A DNA stretch of 64,000 nucleotides from Lachnospiraceae bacterium (lineage in GTDB: Bacteria > Bacillota > Clostridia > Lachnospirales > Lachnospiraceae): NCBI GenBank assembly GCA_016280395.1, contig JAEEGQ010000022.1, positions 62,001 to 126,000 of the forward strand, written 5' to 3'. The translations under genes and the position numbers were made by a program. The notes beneath the pieces were generated by a model, which was not told the DNA's origin, searched no databases, and saw nothing but the letters and a program-made list of their open reading frames with translations. Positions 45,348 through 53,616 of this stretch are shown here, one piece after another (positions within the stretch are counted from its first letter, which is position 1; every line of letters begins with the position of its first letter).

Positions 45348-46703
45348 ATGAAGGGGAAGACAGTATTTTTCTGCACCGAGTGCGGTAATGAGACCGCCAA
45401 GTGGCAGGGCAGATGTCCTGCGTGCGGGGCATGGAATACTTTATCTGAGGAGCCGGCAGCGGGAAAGAGCACCGGTTCAAAGTCGAGTCACAATGTCACA
45501 CCTGTAGCTTTATCGCAGGTTTCCTTCACATCCGAAGAACGAATCTTAACGGGAATCCACGAATTTGACCGCGTCCTTGGCGGGGGAATAGTCGTGGGTT
45601 CTCTGGTTTTGGTCGGAGGAGATCCGGGAATAGGCAAATCGACGCTGCTCCTGCAGGTTTGCAGGGAGCTTTCGGATAAAAAGAGTATTCTTTATGTTTC
45701 CGGCGAGGAGTCCGCAAGACAGATAAAGATGCGGGCCGACAGGCTCGGGAATTTTTCCGACGGAGTAAAGCTCCTTTCGGAAACAAGCCTTGATGCGGTG
45801 GAAGATGCGCTAAGGCAGTTTACACCGGACATCATGATAATCGATTCCATACAGACCATGAGCAGGGACGACATCTCGTCCGCTCCGGGAAGCGTGAGCC
45901 AGGTCAGGGAAAGCACCAACACACTGCTCCATATTGCAAAAGACAGGAACATCACGGTGTTTATCGTGGGCCATGTCACTAAGGACGGACAGGTGGCGGG
46001 ACCGAGGATGCTCGAGCATATGGTCGATACGGTCCTTTATTTTGAGGGAGAACAATCCGCAAATTACAGGATCCTTCGTGCCGTCAAGAACAGGTTCGGC
46101 TCAACCGATGAGATCGGTGTGTTTGAGATGAAAACGGACGGGCTGAGGGAAGTTGCCAACCCGTCGGAATATATGCTGCAGGGAAGACCGCTCGGAGAGC
46201 CGGGGTCTGTTGTTGCGCCTGCGGTCGAGGGCAGCAGGGCGATCCTTGTGGAGATACAGGCGCTTGTCTGCAAGTCCAGCTTCCAGATACCGCGAAGGAC
46301 CGCTGCGGGAGCGGATTACAACAGGATGAACCTGCTTATGGCAGTGCTTGAAAAGAGGCTGGGAACGGAGCTTGCCTGGTGCGACGCCTATCTGAACGTG
46401 GCAGGCGGCATGAGGGTTACGGAGCCGGCGCTCGATCTTTGCATCGTCACGGCGATCCTCTCAAGCTTCAGGAACAAAGCATTGAACGAGAAGACGGTGT
46501 GCTTCGGCGAGGTGGGCCTTACAGGTGAGATAAGAGGCGTGAATTATGCCGCGCAGCGCATCCGCGAAGCGGAAAAGCTTGGGTTTGAAAGGTGTATAAT
46601 GCCTGCAGTCCAGGTAAAGGAGCTTGCAAAAGAGCATCCCAATATAGAGCTTATAGGAGTAAGCAGCGTTAAAGACCTTAACGCGATAATATCAAAGTCA
46701 TGA
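45348..46703 (+). CDS. radA: DNA repair protein RadA
   Basis: CTECGNETAKWQGRCPACGAWNTL zinc finger, GGDPGIGKSTLLLQ, KNRFGSTDEIGVFEM. Confidence 0.97.
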   Translation: MKGKTVFFCTECGNETAKWQGRCPACGAWNTLSEEPAAGKSTGSKSSHNVTPVALSQVSFTSEERILTGIHEFDRVLGGGIVVGSLVLVGGDPGIGKSTLLLQVCRELSDKKSILYVSGEESARQIKMRADRLGNFSDGVKLLSETSLDAVEDALRQFTPDIMIIDSIQTMSRDDISSAPGSVSQVRESTNTLLHIAKDRNITVFIVGHVTKDGQVAGPRMLEHMVDTVLYFEGEQSANYRILRAVKNRFGSTDEIGVFEMKTDGLREVANPSEYMLQGRPLGEPGSVVAPAVEGSRAILVEIQALVCKSSFQIPRRTAAGADYNRMNLLMAVLEKRLGTELAWCDAYLNVAGGMRVTEPALDLCIVTAILSSFRNKALNEKTVCFGEVGLTGEIRGVNYAAQRIREAEKLGFERCIMPAVQVKELAKEHPNIELIGVSSVKDLNAIISKS

Positions 46704-48472
46704 ATATAACCGAAGAACAGGAAATCAAAATAACCAGGATATTAAAGATCGCTTCAGTGGTGCTTGCCGCCGTGCTGGTACTGATCCTTTGCGGAACCTT
46801 TGTCCTGCTCGTAAAGGTAAAGGGTAATTTCAGCTATGTGTATAATTACATGGTAAAGACCGAGGGCGGGAAAAGTGTCGAAAAGAACCCGAACGGAGCG
46901 GCTTATGCCGATTCTCCGGCGCCTTTTTCGCTGCCGGGGACCGCACCGTTTGCGTTCCTAAAGAGGACAGAGATACTTGAAAACGGCGCAAAGACCGATG
47001 TTTTCAACAGGGCCGAAAGGATCGTCTTTACCGAGGATTATCTTAAGGATTTTACCGCTTTTAACGGGATCATAACCTTCAGGGGCAATTATTCAAGATC
47101 AAAGAGTTCCTACGGAACGGTCTCGCTTAAATCCAACACTATTTCAAAGGACTACTGGACTTATAAGACCGGAAAAGTGTTAAAGAGCGACGGTGTGAAC
47201 TTCTGGTCCGGCAACGGCTGGACGGGACAGCCCCTCGCAGTGCAGTGGGATCAGGGCACAAAGGCAGTCATGAACCTTTATCCCGAAGCTAAAGCAAAGA
47301 GCGGTCTTGTTGAAGTCATTTATCCCGGAATGGACGGAATGATCCATTTTCTTGATATGGAAACGGGAAAAGAGACAAGGGATGCAATAAATGTCGGAAT
47401 GACCTTTAAGGGAACATGCTCACTGCATCCGTATTATCCGCTGCTTGTGTGCGGTTCCGGAGATTCCGCACCCGGTCTTTTCGGTGAGCAGGTAAGCGCC
47501 AGGGTATTCATCTACAGTCTTCTCGACGGAAAGAAGCTGTACGAGTTCGGTGCAAATGACAACTTTGCGCCGCGCATATGGCATGCGTATGACAGTTCCG
47601 CCATTTTCTCGGCAGAGACCGATACCCTGATAGCACCGGGCGAGAACGGTGTCATTTACACGATAAAGCTCAATTCGGTCTATGACCCGGCAAACGGCAT
47701 CTTGAGCGTGGATCCGGAGCAGCCGGTTGAATATACCTACTATTCAGAGGCATCGGAAAAACGCATTTATCAGGGCGAAGGCGGGTACGGCTCTGAGGCG
47801 AGCGCCGTGGTATGGGAGAATTACCTGTTCCTTGGCGATAACGGCGGTATATTCTACTGTCTTGACCTTAACACACTCACGCCTGTCTGGGTGCAGGATC
47901 TGTATGAGGACATCAACTCAAGTCCTGTTTTTGAAGTTACGGAAACAGGCGAGAAGTACATATATGTCGGCACGACTCTCAAATACCACACAGACGGACA
48001 TCATCTCGGTGAGGCCTGCATCTACAAGATCAACGCCATGACGGGTGACATCGTCTGGAAGAAGCCTTACGAAGTGCATACCGTGCTCGGTCTTGCCGGG
48101 GGCATTCTTTCTACCGGCACGAGCGGCGAGGGTAAATATTCGGATTATATTTATTATGCGGTATCAAAGGTGCCTTCGGTGGATACGGCTTATATCGTTG
48201 CGATAAGCAAGAAGACCGGCGAGGAATACTGGCGTACGGAGCTCAAATGCGATGCATGGAGCTCGGGAGCGCTTCTGTATGATACGGACGGTTCGGCAAA
48301 GTACGTACAGTGCTGCGGCAACGGCGATATCCTGCTTATGGATGCGAAGACCGGAAAGATACTCGCGTCAAAGAATTTCGGGTCAAATATCGAAGCCACT
48401 CCGGTGGTCTTTGACAACCGTCTTGCGGTAGGACTACGAAGCGAATATATACTCGGTATCAAGTTTGAATGA
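46700..48472 (+). CDS. Membrane-anchored PQQ-like beta-propeller protein
   Basis: One N-terminal TM; blade motifs such as GDIVWKKPYEVHTVL, KTGEEYWRTELKCDAWSSG, DAKTGKILASKNFGSNIEATPVVFDNRL. Confidence 0.85.
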   Translation: MNITEEQEIKITRILKIASVVLAAVLVLILCGTFVLLVKVKGNFSYVYNYMVKTEGGKSVEKNPNGAAYADSPAPFSLPGTAPFAFLKRTEILENGAKTDVFNRAERIVFTEDYLKDFTAFNGIITFRGNYSRSKSSYGTVSLKSNTISKDYWTYKTGKVLKSDGVNFWSGNGWTGQPLAVQWDQGTKAVMNLYPEAKAKSGLVEVIYPGMDGMIHFLDMETGKETRDAINVGMTFKGTCSLHPYYPLLVCGSGDSAPGLFGEQVSARVFIYSLLDGKKLYEFGANDNFAPRIWHAYDSSAIFSAETDTLIAPGENGVIYTIKLNSVYDPANGILSVDPEQPVEYTYYSEASEKRIYQGEGGYGSEASAVVWENYLFLGDNGGIFYCLDLNTLTPVWVQDLYEDINSSPVFEVTETGEKYIYVGTTLKYHTDGHHLGEACIYKINAMTGDIVWKKPYEVHTVLGLAGGILSTGTSGEGKYSDYIYYAVSKVPSVDTAYIVAISKKTGEEYWRTELKCDAWSSGALLYDTDGSAKYVQCCGNGDILLMDAKTGKILASKNFGSNIEATPVVFDNRLAVGLRSEYILGIKFE

Positions 48473-48485
48473 GGCGTGAAAGATA

Positions 48486-49325
48486 ATGATAGATAACAGA
48501 CGAAAATGGATAACGATAGCCGTCTTTGCCGGGATACTATTGGTGTTGACAATGTTTGGCGCTTTTGCTGTGCCCAAACAGTCCGCCTTTGTGTATGAGC
48601 AGCCGGAACAGCTTGCAAAAGCCGGGATCGGCGGTGTAAAGACAAAGATGCCAAAGGCTTCGGCGCAGATATTCTTAAAGAGCTATTTTGGCGTAAACTT
48701 CACGAAATACACAGAATTCAAGGACTTCAGGACAGCGCTTGCAGCCCTGCGTAACCGCAGGGTATCCGCAATATGGGTTTCCGATGTTACGGCCGAGTAT
48801 CTTTGCAGGGAAGGCGGTTACAGGGCACTGTCTGCTCCGGAGACACCGGGAAAGGGCGAGAACAGGCTTGAGTTCGGGTTTGCCTTCAGGAGCTGTGATG
48901 TTGCCCTTAAGGACAAAACGAACGAGATGCTCGAAAAGTTCAGGAACAACGGCATAACCCAAAGACTTTACGAATATTTTGTCAACGGGGCAAAGAATGA
49001 CAGTCTGTGCGGGCTTTCCGGCAAGGGAAGGAAGCTCCGGTTCGGCATTACCGGAACCGTTGAACCTCTTGAAATTATCGATGAAAAGGGCAATTTCTCC
49101 GGAATGGCGGTAGAGCTTGCAAAGTATCTTGCAGCTTATGTCGACATGAAGGTGGAGTTTGTAAGGGTTGACAACGATACAGCCTTTTCAATGCTCATGG
49201 CCGGAAAGATCGATGTTCTGGCCTGCTACGGAACCAGCGAGAACCATTCGGCAGAGGTGCCGGAATACATTATGTCCGACGGTTACTGCGGAATGAAGGA
49301 ATACCGTCTTCTTGTAAATAAATAA
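48486..49325 (+). CDS. Solute-binding-protein-3-like protein with apparently permuted lobes
   Basis: Segment 1 resembles SBP lobe II plus C-terminus (FRTALAALRNRRVSAIWVSD...NEMLEKFRNNGITQRLYEYF); segment 2 resembles the SBP N-terminal lobe (KLRFGITGTVEPLEIIDEKGNFSGMAVELAKYLA). Confidence 0.7.
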   Translation: MIDNRRKWITIAVFAGILLVLTMFGAFAVPKQSAFVYEQPEQLAKAGIGGVKTKMPKASAQIFLKSYFGVNFTKYTEFKDFRTALAALRNRRVSAIWVSDVTAEYLCREGGYRALSAPETPGKGENRLEFGFAFRSCDVALKDKTNEMLEKFRNNGITQRLYEYFVNGAKNDSLCGLSGKGRKLRFGITGTVEPLEIIDEKGNFSGMAVELAKYLAAYVDMKVEFVRVDNDTAFSMLMAGKIDVLACYGTSENHSAEVPEYIMSDGYCGMKEYRLLVNK

Positions 49326-49359
49326 ATGCCGGCAGACAGCCGGGGGAATCAGGGTGATC

Positions 49360-50013
49360 ATGTCTAATCTGTTTAATGCGATCAAAAGCAATCTTATTGC
49401 CGGAGGGGCTTACAGCCTTATCATCAAGGCGATCATATCGACGCTTGTACTTACTGTCCTCGCACTTATCATAGCAGCCGCTGTAGGAGCTGTCTTAAGC
49501 TATTTTATGTGTTATGAGGTCAAATATGTTTCCGCTGTTGCGGTATCCTTAAGCTTCCTGTTCAGGAGCACACCGGTGCTGCTGCTTATGCTGTTCTTAA
49601 ATTTCGGACCTTTCGGTTCGACGCATATGCCGGCTCTTCTTACGGCGGCATTTGCCATAGGTCTTTATGGCGGCGGGCATATCTCCGAGGTAGTAATGAA
49701 GGCTGTCAGGGAACATGAGGATTTTGCGGACAAAGAGATCCGCAGACGCTTAAGGAAGGCATTTTTTACGGCTGCGTTCCCGGAGGGCTGCATCCGTTCA
49801 AAATTCCAGCTGAAAAGGCTTGTCATCCAGCTGTTCCAGTGGACGACCGTCGCAGGTTACATAGGTGTTAACGAGCTCACCCAGGTTATGCAGGACATCG
49901 GAAACCGCACCATGTATCCTTTCTTCTCGATAGGCTTCTCGATCCTGGTTTACCTTTGCATGACGGTTGTGCTCGAGATAGTTTATAATCTTGTGGAAAA
50001 GAAGATCAAATAA
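49360..50013 (+). CDS. Polar amino-acid-type ABC permease (HisM/GlnP family), no adjacent ATPase
   Basis: Five TM segments; [21 protein letters not shown]; degenerate EAA-loop region. Confidence 0.78.
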
Positions 50014-50071: not shown

Positions 50072-50842
50072 ATGGAGAGAAAAAATGTACAGTATCACAT
50101 CCAGTGCGCAGAGGGAGAGGTAGGAAAGTACGTCATCATCCCAGGTGATCCCGGCCGCTGTGAGAAGATCGCAAAGTATTTTGACAACCCTGTGCTTGTG
50201 GCACAGAACCGCGAATATACCACGTATACGGGCACACTTCTCGGGGAGAAGGTAAGCGTATGTTCTACCGGTATCGGCGGTCCTTCGGCTTCTATCGCCG
50301 TTGAGGAGCTTACGGCTCTCGGAGCGGACACCTTTGTGCGCGTCGGGACCTGCGGCGGTATAAACATGAAGGTGCTTGCGGACGACTGTGTTATCGCAAG
50401 CGGTGCGGTAAGAATGGAAGGAACAAGCCGCGAATATGCGCCGATAGAATTTCCTGCTGTTGCGGATTATGAGGTCCTGACAGCACTTGTTGAAGGCGCA
50501 AAGAGGCTTGGCTTAAGGTGGCACGCAGGTGTCGTACAGTGCAAGGATTCGTTCTACGGACAGCATTCGCCTTCACGCATGCCTGTTTCCTATGAGCTCC
50601 TTAACAAATGGGAAGCATGGAAGCGCCTCGGCGTGCTCGGCAGCGAGATGGAATCTGCAGCGGTATTTACCGTGGCTGCAGCTCTCGGAGTCCGCGCAGG
50701 TTCCGTATTCCATGTTGTATGGAACCAGGAGCGCAAGGCAGCGGGCTTCCATGAACCGGATGCATTTGATACCGAGAAGGCAATAAGGATCGGTATTGAA
50801 GCCGTAAAGATACTTATCGAAAGAGACAGGGTGGCTAAATAA
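50072..50842 (+). CDS. udp: Uridine phosphorylase-type nucleoside phosphorylase
   Basis: [57 protein letters not shown]. Confidence 0.92.
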
Positions 50843-50937: not shown

Positions 50938-53616
50938 ATGAAGAAAACAGTAAAAAATGTATTGGCTTTTCTGCTGGTGCTCGCAATGATCCTGCCGGGA
51001 TATTTCGGACCGGTCATGAAAGCGAAGGCAAGCGAGGGTGTCACCCTTAAGCTGCACTACCACAGGACAGACGGCAATTACGAAGGCTGGGACGTCTGGC
51101 TCTGGGAGGAAGGCAAGGACGGCGCAGGTTACGCATTTGCCGATGAAAACGGTGAAAAGGTCGCAACAAAAGTGATAACGAGCGGTGCTTCAAGCATCGG
51201 GTTTATTGTGAGAACCGCAAGCTGGGATAAGGATATCGCCAAGGACCAGTTCATCGACATCGCGGAAATGGCTTCCGGTACGGTACACATTTATGTCGAA
51301 TCTGGAGTTGAAGGCTACACAAAGACCTACGGAGATGATGCAGTGAGAGGCATAAAGATCAAAAGTGCAAAATATAACGGGAATGACGCTATAGACATCA
51401 TCATGACGGCGCCTATCGACGGCGATCACAATACGGTATTTTCCGTAAAAGGTCCCAAGGGCGAAGTATCGATCAAGTCTGTTAATGCCATGGGCGCAAA
51501 CTACAGGATCAATTTGGATGCGCCCCTTAAGGATACTTCAAAATACACGGTATATTATGACGGTTCGCCGTGCTCTGTAACGATGCCGAACATCTTCTCA
51601 ACAGAGAAGTTTGAGAATGAGTTTACATATACGGGCAGCGATCTCGGGGCTGTATGGACCGCAGACAAGACAACCTTCAGGGTATGGTCGCCTGTTGCGG
51701 AGACTCTTAAGGTAAATCTCTACAAGAGCGGGACCGAAGGCACAGCTGACCTTATCGAGTCGATCGATATGAAACAGGATGTGAACGGTACCTGGGTAGC
51801 CGAAAAGAACGGCAACCAGAACGGTGTTTATTACACCTACAGCGTTACTGTGGACGGCGTTACGAGCGAGACCATCGATCCTTACGCAAGGACTGCGGGC
51901 GTTAACGGCAAGCGAGGCATGATCATCGATCTTAAATCCACAGATCCCTCGGGCTGGGATGCCGACAAGAACCCGAACGCAGGGAAGAGCTATACCGATG
52001 CGATAATCTATGAGGCTCACATCCGCGATATTACGGTCGGAAAAGAAGCAAATATCTCAAAACCCGGTACTTTCCTCGGTGTTGCGGAGCTTGGAACAAA
52101 GACGAGCAGCGGCATCGCAACAGGGCTTGACCATATCAAAGAGCTTGGCATCACGCACCTGCACATCCTTCCGATGTACGATTTCGGCTCGGTTGACGAG
52201 TCAAAGGGCGGTTATAACTGGGGCTACGATCCCGTTAACTACAACATTCCGGAAGGCTCCTATTCGACGGATCCTTACAACGGGAACGTGCGTGTGAGCG
52301 AGCTCAAGCAGATGGTTAAAACACTGCACGAGAACGGGATAAGCGTTGTTATGGACGTTGTTTACAACCATGTTTACAGCGCTGCGGAATTCAGCGTTAA
52401 CAAGCTTGTTCCCGGCTATTTCTCAAGGATAATGGAGAACGGCGCGTATTCGAACGGTTCCGGCTGCGGCAACGATACGGCAACGGAACGCTCCATGGTA
52501 AGAAAATACGTTGTTGATTCGGTTAACTACTGGGCAGATGAGTATCATATCGACGGTTTCCGTTTTGACCTTGTGGGTCTTATGGATGTCGATACCATCA
52601 ATGAGATAGTGGAGACCGTACACAAGAAACACCCGGATGTCCTGTTCTACGGCGAAGGCTGGTCGCTTACAACCATGGTCACAAAGGATGATGTGAAGCT
52701 TGCAACACAGCCTAATTCCCAGTTGACTCCCGGTTTCGCATATTTTAACGACACCTTCAGGGATGCGGTAAAAGGCGGCGTGTTCAACGCTTCCGAAAAA
52801 GGCTTTGTATCGGGTGCGAGCGGTAAGGAATTCACGATCTTCAGAGGCTTTACGGGAAGATGTTCCTGGTGCAAAACACCTTTACAGAGCGTGAACTATG
52901 CATCATGTCACGATAACAATACTTTGTATGACAGGCTTGCTCTCTCTGCCGACAAGGGTTCAGACCTTGCCGCAATGAACAGGCTTGCCGCAGCAATAAC
53001 GCTTACTTCCGACGGTATCCCCTTCATGATGTCCGGAGAGGAAATGCTGCGTTCAAAGAAAAATGCCGACGGTACTTTCAACGAGAACAGCTATAATGCC
53101 GGCGATGCGGTAAATGCGCTTGATTATTCCAGCCTTTCAGACGATACCGTCAAGACCGTAAACGATTATTACAAGGGATTGATCGAGTTCAGAAAGGCAC
53201 ACCCCGCTTTCAGAGCGACGGATGTTGCAGTGATCGACAAGGCAGTCAAGAGGATCGAAGGCATCGGCAAGAATATTGTCGGTATAGCGATCGATGGAAC
53301 ACAGATCACAGGAGAGACCGCAAGTTCTATATTTGTTGTGTTCAATGCCGATACAGCAGATGCAAATGTTGAGCTCCCCGAAGGCAAATGGGGTATTTAC
53401 GTTAACGACACAAAAGCCGGAACAAAACGTCTTAAGACGGTTTCGGGAAAGGTGAACGTTAAAGGTATTTCGGCAATGGTCCTTGTAAAAGAAGGAGAGG
53501 GAAGCGTTGTCAATCCATGGCTCATAGCCGGGATCGCAGGAGCGGGTGTTGTGCTTGCCGCAGCGCTTTTTGTGATACTTTTCGGGAGAAAAAAGAATCC
53601 GAAGAAAGAGAAATAA
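50938..53616 (+). CDS. pulA: Type I pullulanase, cell-surface anchored, with N-terminal CBM41-like module
   Basis: Signal peptide; LKLHYHRTDGNYEGWDVWLWEEG; YNWGYDPVNYNIPEGSY; GFRFDLVGLMDVDT; C-terminal TM plus basic tail. Confidence 0.93.
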   Translation: MKKTVKNVLAFLLVLAMILPGYFGPVMKAKASEGVTLKLHYHRTDGNYEGWDVWLWEEGKDGAGYAFADENGEKVATKVITSGASSIGFIVRTASWDKDIAKDQFIDIAEMASGTVHIYVESGVEGYTKTYGDDAVRGIKIKSAKYNGNDAIDIIMTAPIDGDHNTVFSVKGPKGEVSIKSVNAMGANYRINLDAPLKDTSKYTVYYDGSPCSVTMPNIFSTEKFENEFTYTGSDLGAVWTADKTTFRVWSPVAETLKVNLYKSGTEGTADLIESIDMKQDVNGTWVAEKNGNQNGVYYTYSVTVDGVTSETIDPYARTAGVNGKRGMIIDLKSTDPSGWDADKNPNAGKSYTDAIIYEAHIRDITVGKEANISKPGTFLGVAELGTKTSSGIATGLDHIKELGITHLHILPMYDFGSVDESKGGYNWGYDPVNYNIPEGSYSTDPYNGNVRVSELKQMVKTLHENGISVVMDVVYNHVYSAAEFSVNKLVPGYFSRIMENGAYSNGSGCGNDTATERSMVRKYVVDSVNYWADEYHIDGFRFDLVGLMDVDTINEIVETVHKKHPDVLFYGEGWSLTTMVTKDDVKLATQPNSQLTPGFAYFNDTFRDAVKGGVFNASEKGFVSGASGKEFTIFRGFTGRCSWCKTPLQSVNYASCHDNNTLYDRLALSADKGSDLAAMNRLAAAITLTSDGIPFMMSGEEMLRSKKNADGTFNENSYNAGDAVNALDYSSLSDDTVKTVNDYYKGLIEFRKAHPAFRATDVAVIDKAVKRIEGIGKNIVGIAIDGTQITGETASSIFVVFNADTADANVELPEGKWGIYVNDTKAGTKRLKTVSGKVNVKGISAMVLVKEGEGSVVNPWLIAGIAGAGVVLAAALFVILFGRKKNPKKEK

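Follow-up and report, generated by a model that had tools for sequence, protein, structure and literature searches.

The gene under study occupies positions 48486–49325 (plus strand) of the window, by which we mean the whole 64,000-nucleotide stretch of Lachnospiraceae DNA that was analysed, and it lies between two genes on the same strand. Upstream is a gene for a TM-anchored PQQ/BamB-like beta-propeller protein (46700–48472; Pfam Beta-prop_ACSF4/PQQ_2), and downstream one for a GlnP/ArtQ-type ABC permease (TMD) that lacks the coupling motif (49360–50013, or starting at 49354). The permease was assigned by TIGR01726, with 41.5 bits just below the cut-off of 42.2, and by an AF2 model (pLDDT 83) whose top Foldseek match was 4yms, a TMD from an ABC transporter for amino acids, over 215 columns. 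The propeller gene is preceded by radA (45348–46703, plus strand), with 4 nt (ATGA) shared between the radA stop and the start of the propeller gene, and the order clpC-o142-radA upstream of the cassette is found likewise in several homologous loci. Directly downstream of the permease is a nucleoside-phosphorylase-like gene (50072–50842), a neighbour of the cassette in this genus alone (L073–L075), and further on a gene for a pullulanase-like protein that is secreted and has its TM anchor at the C-terminus (50938–53616).

The CDS starts with ATG and encodes 279 residues, which by profiles, rotation test and AF2 modelling constitute a membrane-anchored, circularly permuted family-3 solute-binding protein (SBP_bac_3, cluster F type). 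The single N-terminal TM segment noticed in the initial annotation was recovered by hydropathy and as an AF2 helix at residues 4–27 (48495–48566), and the reported lack of a lipobox holds for the subfamily to which the window protein belongs, whereas other permuted SBPs do carry one. With a TM anchor and no Cys the protein departs from the secreted lipoprotein or periplasmic form of family-3 SBPs. Residues 38–168 (48597–48989), the C-half, correspond to lobe 2 and the return into lobe 1, which in canonical SBPs come second, as located by NCBIfam ArtI, an HMM of the C-part and the rotation test. Residues 178–279 (49017–49322), the N-half, run from the start of lobe 1 to the first hinge crossing and end where S1 of the glutamate receptors ends, as judged from the Pfam match and from homologues compared with PF10613. 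The linker of residues 169–177 (48990–49016) bridges the former C- and N-termini, and is placed there by the rotation optimum and by a low pLDDT at residues 171–180. A degenerate ligand loop, YGTSENHS (49227–49250), stands in place of the canonical SxTxxR, and the Arg that contacts the alpha-carboxylate is lost according to residue counts in the alignment. All these features are on the plus strand.

The initial annotation read the first half of the protein as the second part of a family-3 SBP and the second half as the beginning of one, and both readings were confirmed by profile searches. Pfam SBP_bac_3 scored 58.5 bits against a cut-off of 26.4, with residues 184–247 as the best stretch aligned to profile positions 1–64, and TIGR01096/HisJ-type models placed residues 182–246 at their N-terminal end, while NCBIfam ArtI aligned residues 78–165 to positions 153–240 of 243, which is its C-terminal end. 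Across the profile libraries, residues 182–247 were the beginning of a family-3 SBP and residues 73–165 the end, and the PDB sequence AncQR matched both stretches in reversed order. In a rotation test the mature chain was scored at every fifth rotation with an HMM built from 56 canonical Clostridia SBPs. In native order the highest-scoring single domain reached 40.3 bits (HMM 7–74), rotation at residues 173–178 gave one domain of 74.1 bits (HMM 7–227) with the score dropping on either side, and the best of the composition shuffles (200 made, 129 scored) reached 1.8 bits, indicating that one complete domain has been exchanged and that the match is not due to chance. The canonical N-to-C order is thus absent although both halves of one domain are present, and after rotation they are contiguous and complete, without duplication. 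On sequence grounds the product is a genuine circular permutant of the solute-binding domain of family 3 (type II, cluster F), with a predicted fold that the model supports. The new termini map to a loop of lobe 2, flanked by the first hinge strand and the LKGKxxGV strand, and a short linker joins the old termini.

The AF2 model of the single SBP chain is one bilobed chain with pLDDT 85 and pTM 0.77, in which strands and helices follow each other in the rotated order expected for a permutant, and the weak inner blocks are the linker and the ligand loop. The model matched type II structures only, just as the profile matches were to family 3 only. Foldseek, which aligns sequentially only, gave full-length alignments to canonical SBPs with TM scores of 0.3–0.49, read here as pseudo-symmetry of the two lobes; because of this pseudo-symmetry the sequential alignments are uninformative on the order of the halves, and they were set aside both as proof and as disproof. 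No solved structure of a permuted family-3 SBP was found in the PDB; GlnPQ (6h30), the single chain with a colinear span among the PDB matches listed, owes this span to tandem canonical SBPs.

The suggested search for homologues with the same order gave colinear full-length proteins, three of them from the same genus with identities of 70, 38 and 36% and one of 31% identity from a different genus. When order was scored with a profile divided into a C-part and an N-part, the C-N order was seen in many more Clostridia proteins: as standalone ORFs of 262–313 aa, as SBP-permease fusions of 501–537 aa, as (CN)2-permease and (CN)3-permease chains, and as single SBP-permease-ATPase chains of 910–1151 aa. 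TIGR01096 aligned to permuted relatives with positions 118–250 first and then 21–117, without overlap or duplicate, whereas a canonical control was aligned over 7–250 in a single stretch. Tandem canonical SBPs that mimic a C-N order could be rejected, since proteins with the P1 cut have no N-half before the C-half and the ORF stops right after the N-half. The rotation test gave a clear gain for L041, L110, L109, L090 and L083 and only a small one for L101 and L104, and HMMER kept two domains for L028 and L074; for L028, L101 and L104 the order was therefore taken from the split profile, TIGR01096 and the ORF end, and for L074 from the locus survey. When 61 relatives, for the most part one from each genus, were surveyed with Pfam, at least 18 (counted by hand) carried a verified C-N protein, and these permuted Clostridia SBPs usually sit in complete importers with pocket and EAA motif intact. 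Among the relatives, L019 and L018 have three tandem permuted SBP units before one permease, with an adjacent ATPase gene, and L108 (2186–4042, minus strand) encodes a 619-aa protein in which an apparent type I (sugar-type) periplasmic binding protein is fused to a permuted family-3 SBP.

At least three different cut points occur in permuted family-3 SBPs. The main one is at the site at which glutamate receptors have their pore inserted. In the proteins with the P2 cut (L101–L105, L175, L181) the end of the C-half comes first, followed by the N-half and the start of the C-half; a lipobox is present where the N-terminus could be read and a permease lies downstream where the locus shows one. The P3 cut, found in L109 (1419–2294, minus strand), is inside lobe 2, after GKKIGVQNGTTGDIAITNYL; this protein also has a lipobox, with permease and ATPase genes downstream. 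In a tree of sequences turned to canonical order the permuted and canonical rows were interleaved, with at least seven label changes for standalone P1 proteins and three for P2, and with starred pairs, among them those joining canonical L124 to permuted L110/L169, canonical L177 to four permuted rows, and P2 L104 to canonical L126. The tree comes from a quick, short search without bootstraps, it does not distinguish gains from losses, some labels mix architecture and order, and one protein is represented twice (L109, also L057), so several origins are claimed but no number. Permutation of family-3 SBPs has thus apparently arisen several times in Clostridia. The sister group of the window subfamily was not taken from the tree, as its branch is long (1.35) and the placement is not interpretable.

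When the upstream propeller was used for a scan, 28 loci were recovered. The order propeller, permuted SBP, permease was found in 21 of them, all from MAGs named Lachnospiraceae, Lachnoclostridium or Clostridia, and SBP and permease are fused in eight. Six loci have the propeller without the SBP, namely L081, L082 and the non-Lachnospiraceae L096–L099, while L084 stops at a contig edge; the propeller, which is kept in 21/21 cassette loci, predates the cassette or is more widespread. The six propellers without SBP are also without permease, and the neighbours in L081 are MoxR/DUF58/transglutaminase-like genes.

The permease of the window has a degenerate EAA coupling loop (approximately 49700–49794, plus strand, by comparison of the motif), and none of the 22 permeases of this subfamily retains the EAA motif, which is degenerate or deleted, whereas 37 of 38 permuted systems with ABC linkage and 5/5 canonical ones keep its E..G core. 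No ATPase gene adjoins the cassette, neither in the window nor in the 21 loci; the loci L076, L077 and L095 have weakly matching NBDs 2–3 kb upstream, separate from the cassette. The ligand-binding Arg is present in 51 of 57 canonical and 42 of 46 ABC-linked permuted SBPs but in 0/9 of the window subfamily, where the counts cover the 9 of 22 rows that were aligned, and in the same nine the aromatic clamp F/Y is replaced by V/L. Further members of the subfamily show YGTSxNxT-like loops. Outside the subfamily, a permuted SBP-permease fusion in L107 (747–3205, corresponding to the L040 region) has a degenerate EAA loop and an adjoining, weakly matching NBD gene, and may likewise be in the course of losing its ATP coupling.

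The domain itself is that of HisJ, GlnH, ArtI and the SBD1/SBD2 domains of GlnP, to judge from the sequence, and the adjoining permease is of the GlnP/ArtQ type. Compared with canonical cluster F SBPs, however, the window protein has its halves swapped, its termini in lobe 2, a TM anchor and no lipobox, and compared with the canonical systems it lacks the ligand Arg and an ATPase gene; likewise, the permease has the HisM/GlnP-type TMD of a type I polar amino acid importer but neither the EAA motif nor an ATPase in the operon. Permuted SBP-permease-ATPase operons (L028, L041, L008, L015, L019) share the cut and the SBP/permease order with the window, but in Clostridia operons of the L028 type the ligand Arg, the EAA motif and the ATPase are kept, and these are orthodox importers, some with SBP-TMD-NBD fusions. 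A natural permuted SBP is known in TpMglB-2 (Tp0684), described as 'Type Ic / cluster Bc', membrane-tethered and reported in Gram-positives as well, with a type I/cluster B sugar-binding fold that binds glucose, probably as part of an ABC importer (PMC4990184). Its cut is different, as strands of its N lobe have been moved to the end (PMC4990184), and the window SBP does not have the type I (cluster B) fold, so the likeness consists of natural permutation and a membrane tether. As far as found, TpMglB-2 is the only natural precedent for a permuted SBP, and it belongs to another structural class; no report of permuted family-3 SBPs was found in the open-access literature.

In the same-cut relatives L028 and L041, matches to PF10613, the profile of the glutamate-receptor S1 segment, covering positions 41–112 and 66–114 of 115 reach the C-terminus of the protein, and since the N-half thus ends where S1 ends, the membrane attachment should be on lobe 2. 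In ionotropic glutamate receptors the membrane domain is attached to lobe 2 at the end of S1, and S1 precedes S2 with the pore inserted. The likeness to their ligand-binding domain lies in the attachment site; here S2 comes before S1, with an ABC TMD as membrane part.

The initial annotation left the choice between a circular permutant and the centre of a tandem duplication that has eroded, and while the permutant is borne out by rotation test, homologues and AF2, erosion is not supported as the present state of the gene. An SBP1-SBP2 fusion of the form N-C-N-C would give C-N on losing its outer halves, and the (CN)2 and (CN)3 fusions exist, but order and length are kept in the 21 cassette loci and in dozens of ABC-linked ones, neither N nor C remnants of a second copy were seen in the flanks, the modelled protein folds as a single domain, and dN/dS is 0.05–0.19 for SBP and permease (several pairs being near saturation at silent sites), as expected under strong purifying selection. 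We therefore regard a decaying gene as extremely unlikely. The short linker between the old termini, together with the fact that the halves of two-lobed domains can always pair between chains, might also allow a domain-swapped dimer in which each domain combines a C-half and an N-half from different chains; structurally the protein would then be a swapped oligomer and not a permutant. The confident single-chain model, where the weak inner blocks are confined to linker and ligand loop, makes this very improbable.

The main rival to a decoupled system is that the permutant still works as a subunit of an ABC importer with the ATPase encoded elsewhere. ABC-linked permuted SBPs keep the pocket, the EAA motif and an adjoining ATPase, so permutation as such need not prevent import, and NBD sharing is known for type I importers (PMC7658222). 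The EAA loop, however, is degenerate or deleted throughout the subfamily, the ligand Arg and the clamp aromatic are gone, and the few NBDs in the vicinity are separate and weak, and we thus consider an ATPase in trans unlikely. Attachment through lobe 2 as in glutamate receptors led us to consider a gated, ATP-free role, by analogy, in which closure of the SBP would act via lobe 2 on a putative ligand-gated membrane element. The permutation cut equals the S1/TM1 junction of these receptors, PF10613 is matched to its end at permuted C-termini, the S1-like half is fused straight to the TMD in the eight fusion loci, and the EAA motif is lost. The TMD, on the other hand, is of the ABC type with its match to 4yms and not a pore-loop channel, and conduction is not known from ABC TMDs that lack an NBD, which makes such gating very unlikely. 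A wider proposal, to which we give a low probability, is that Clostridia repeatedly permute amino-acid-type SBPs, moving the tether from lobe 1 to lobe 2, and that one Lachnospiraceae lineage has made of this an ATP-free, ligand-gated SBP-permease receptor with a beta-propeller.

The reading that we favour, and consider fairly probable, is that of a permutant in a decoupled half of an ABC importer, kept as an extracellular sensor or scaffold together with the propeller. The permutant probably originated when the SBP domain was duplicated in tandem and the outer halves were then lost, a route made plausible by the (C-N)2- and (C-N)3-permease relatives. In the window subfamily the SBP is an extracellular domain, either TM-anchored or fused to the permease, and would act as one unit with the EAA-less permease and the TM-anchored extracellular propeller. 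Most likely ATP-driven import has been dropped, and the domain tethered through lobe 2 may sense or hold a ligand other than an amino acid, or the propeller, with the permease serving as a membrane platform or as a signal or gate element. The window SBP has probably been repurposed rather than broken, since it is accompanied by a permease without docking site for the ATP motor and by an extracellular propeller, the role of which is a guess from gene order.

A common amino-acid SBP family is thus permuted at no fewer than three sites in a sizeable fraction of the Clostridia of gut and rumen, and the proteins are easily filed as partial or ordinary because profile searches give two partial matches. 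They provide a natural test bed for the position of the tether on clamshell domains and for the design of biosensors, and the window subfamily offers an SBP-permease pair in which ATP coupling has been lost while selection is maintained, with a partner that can be tested.
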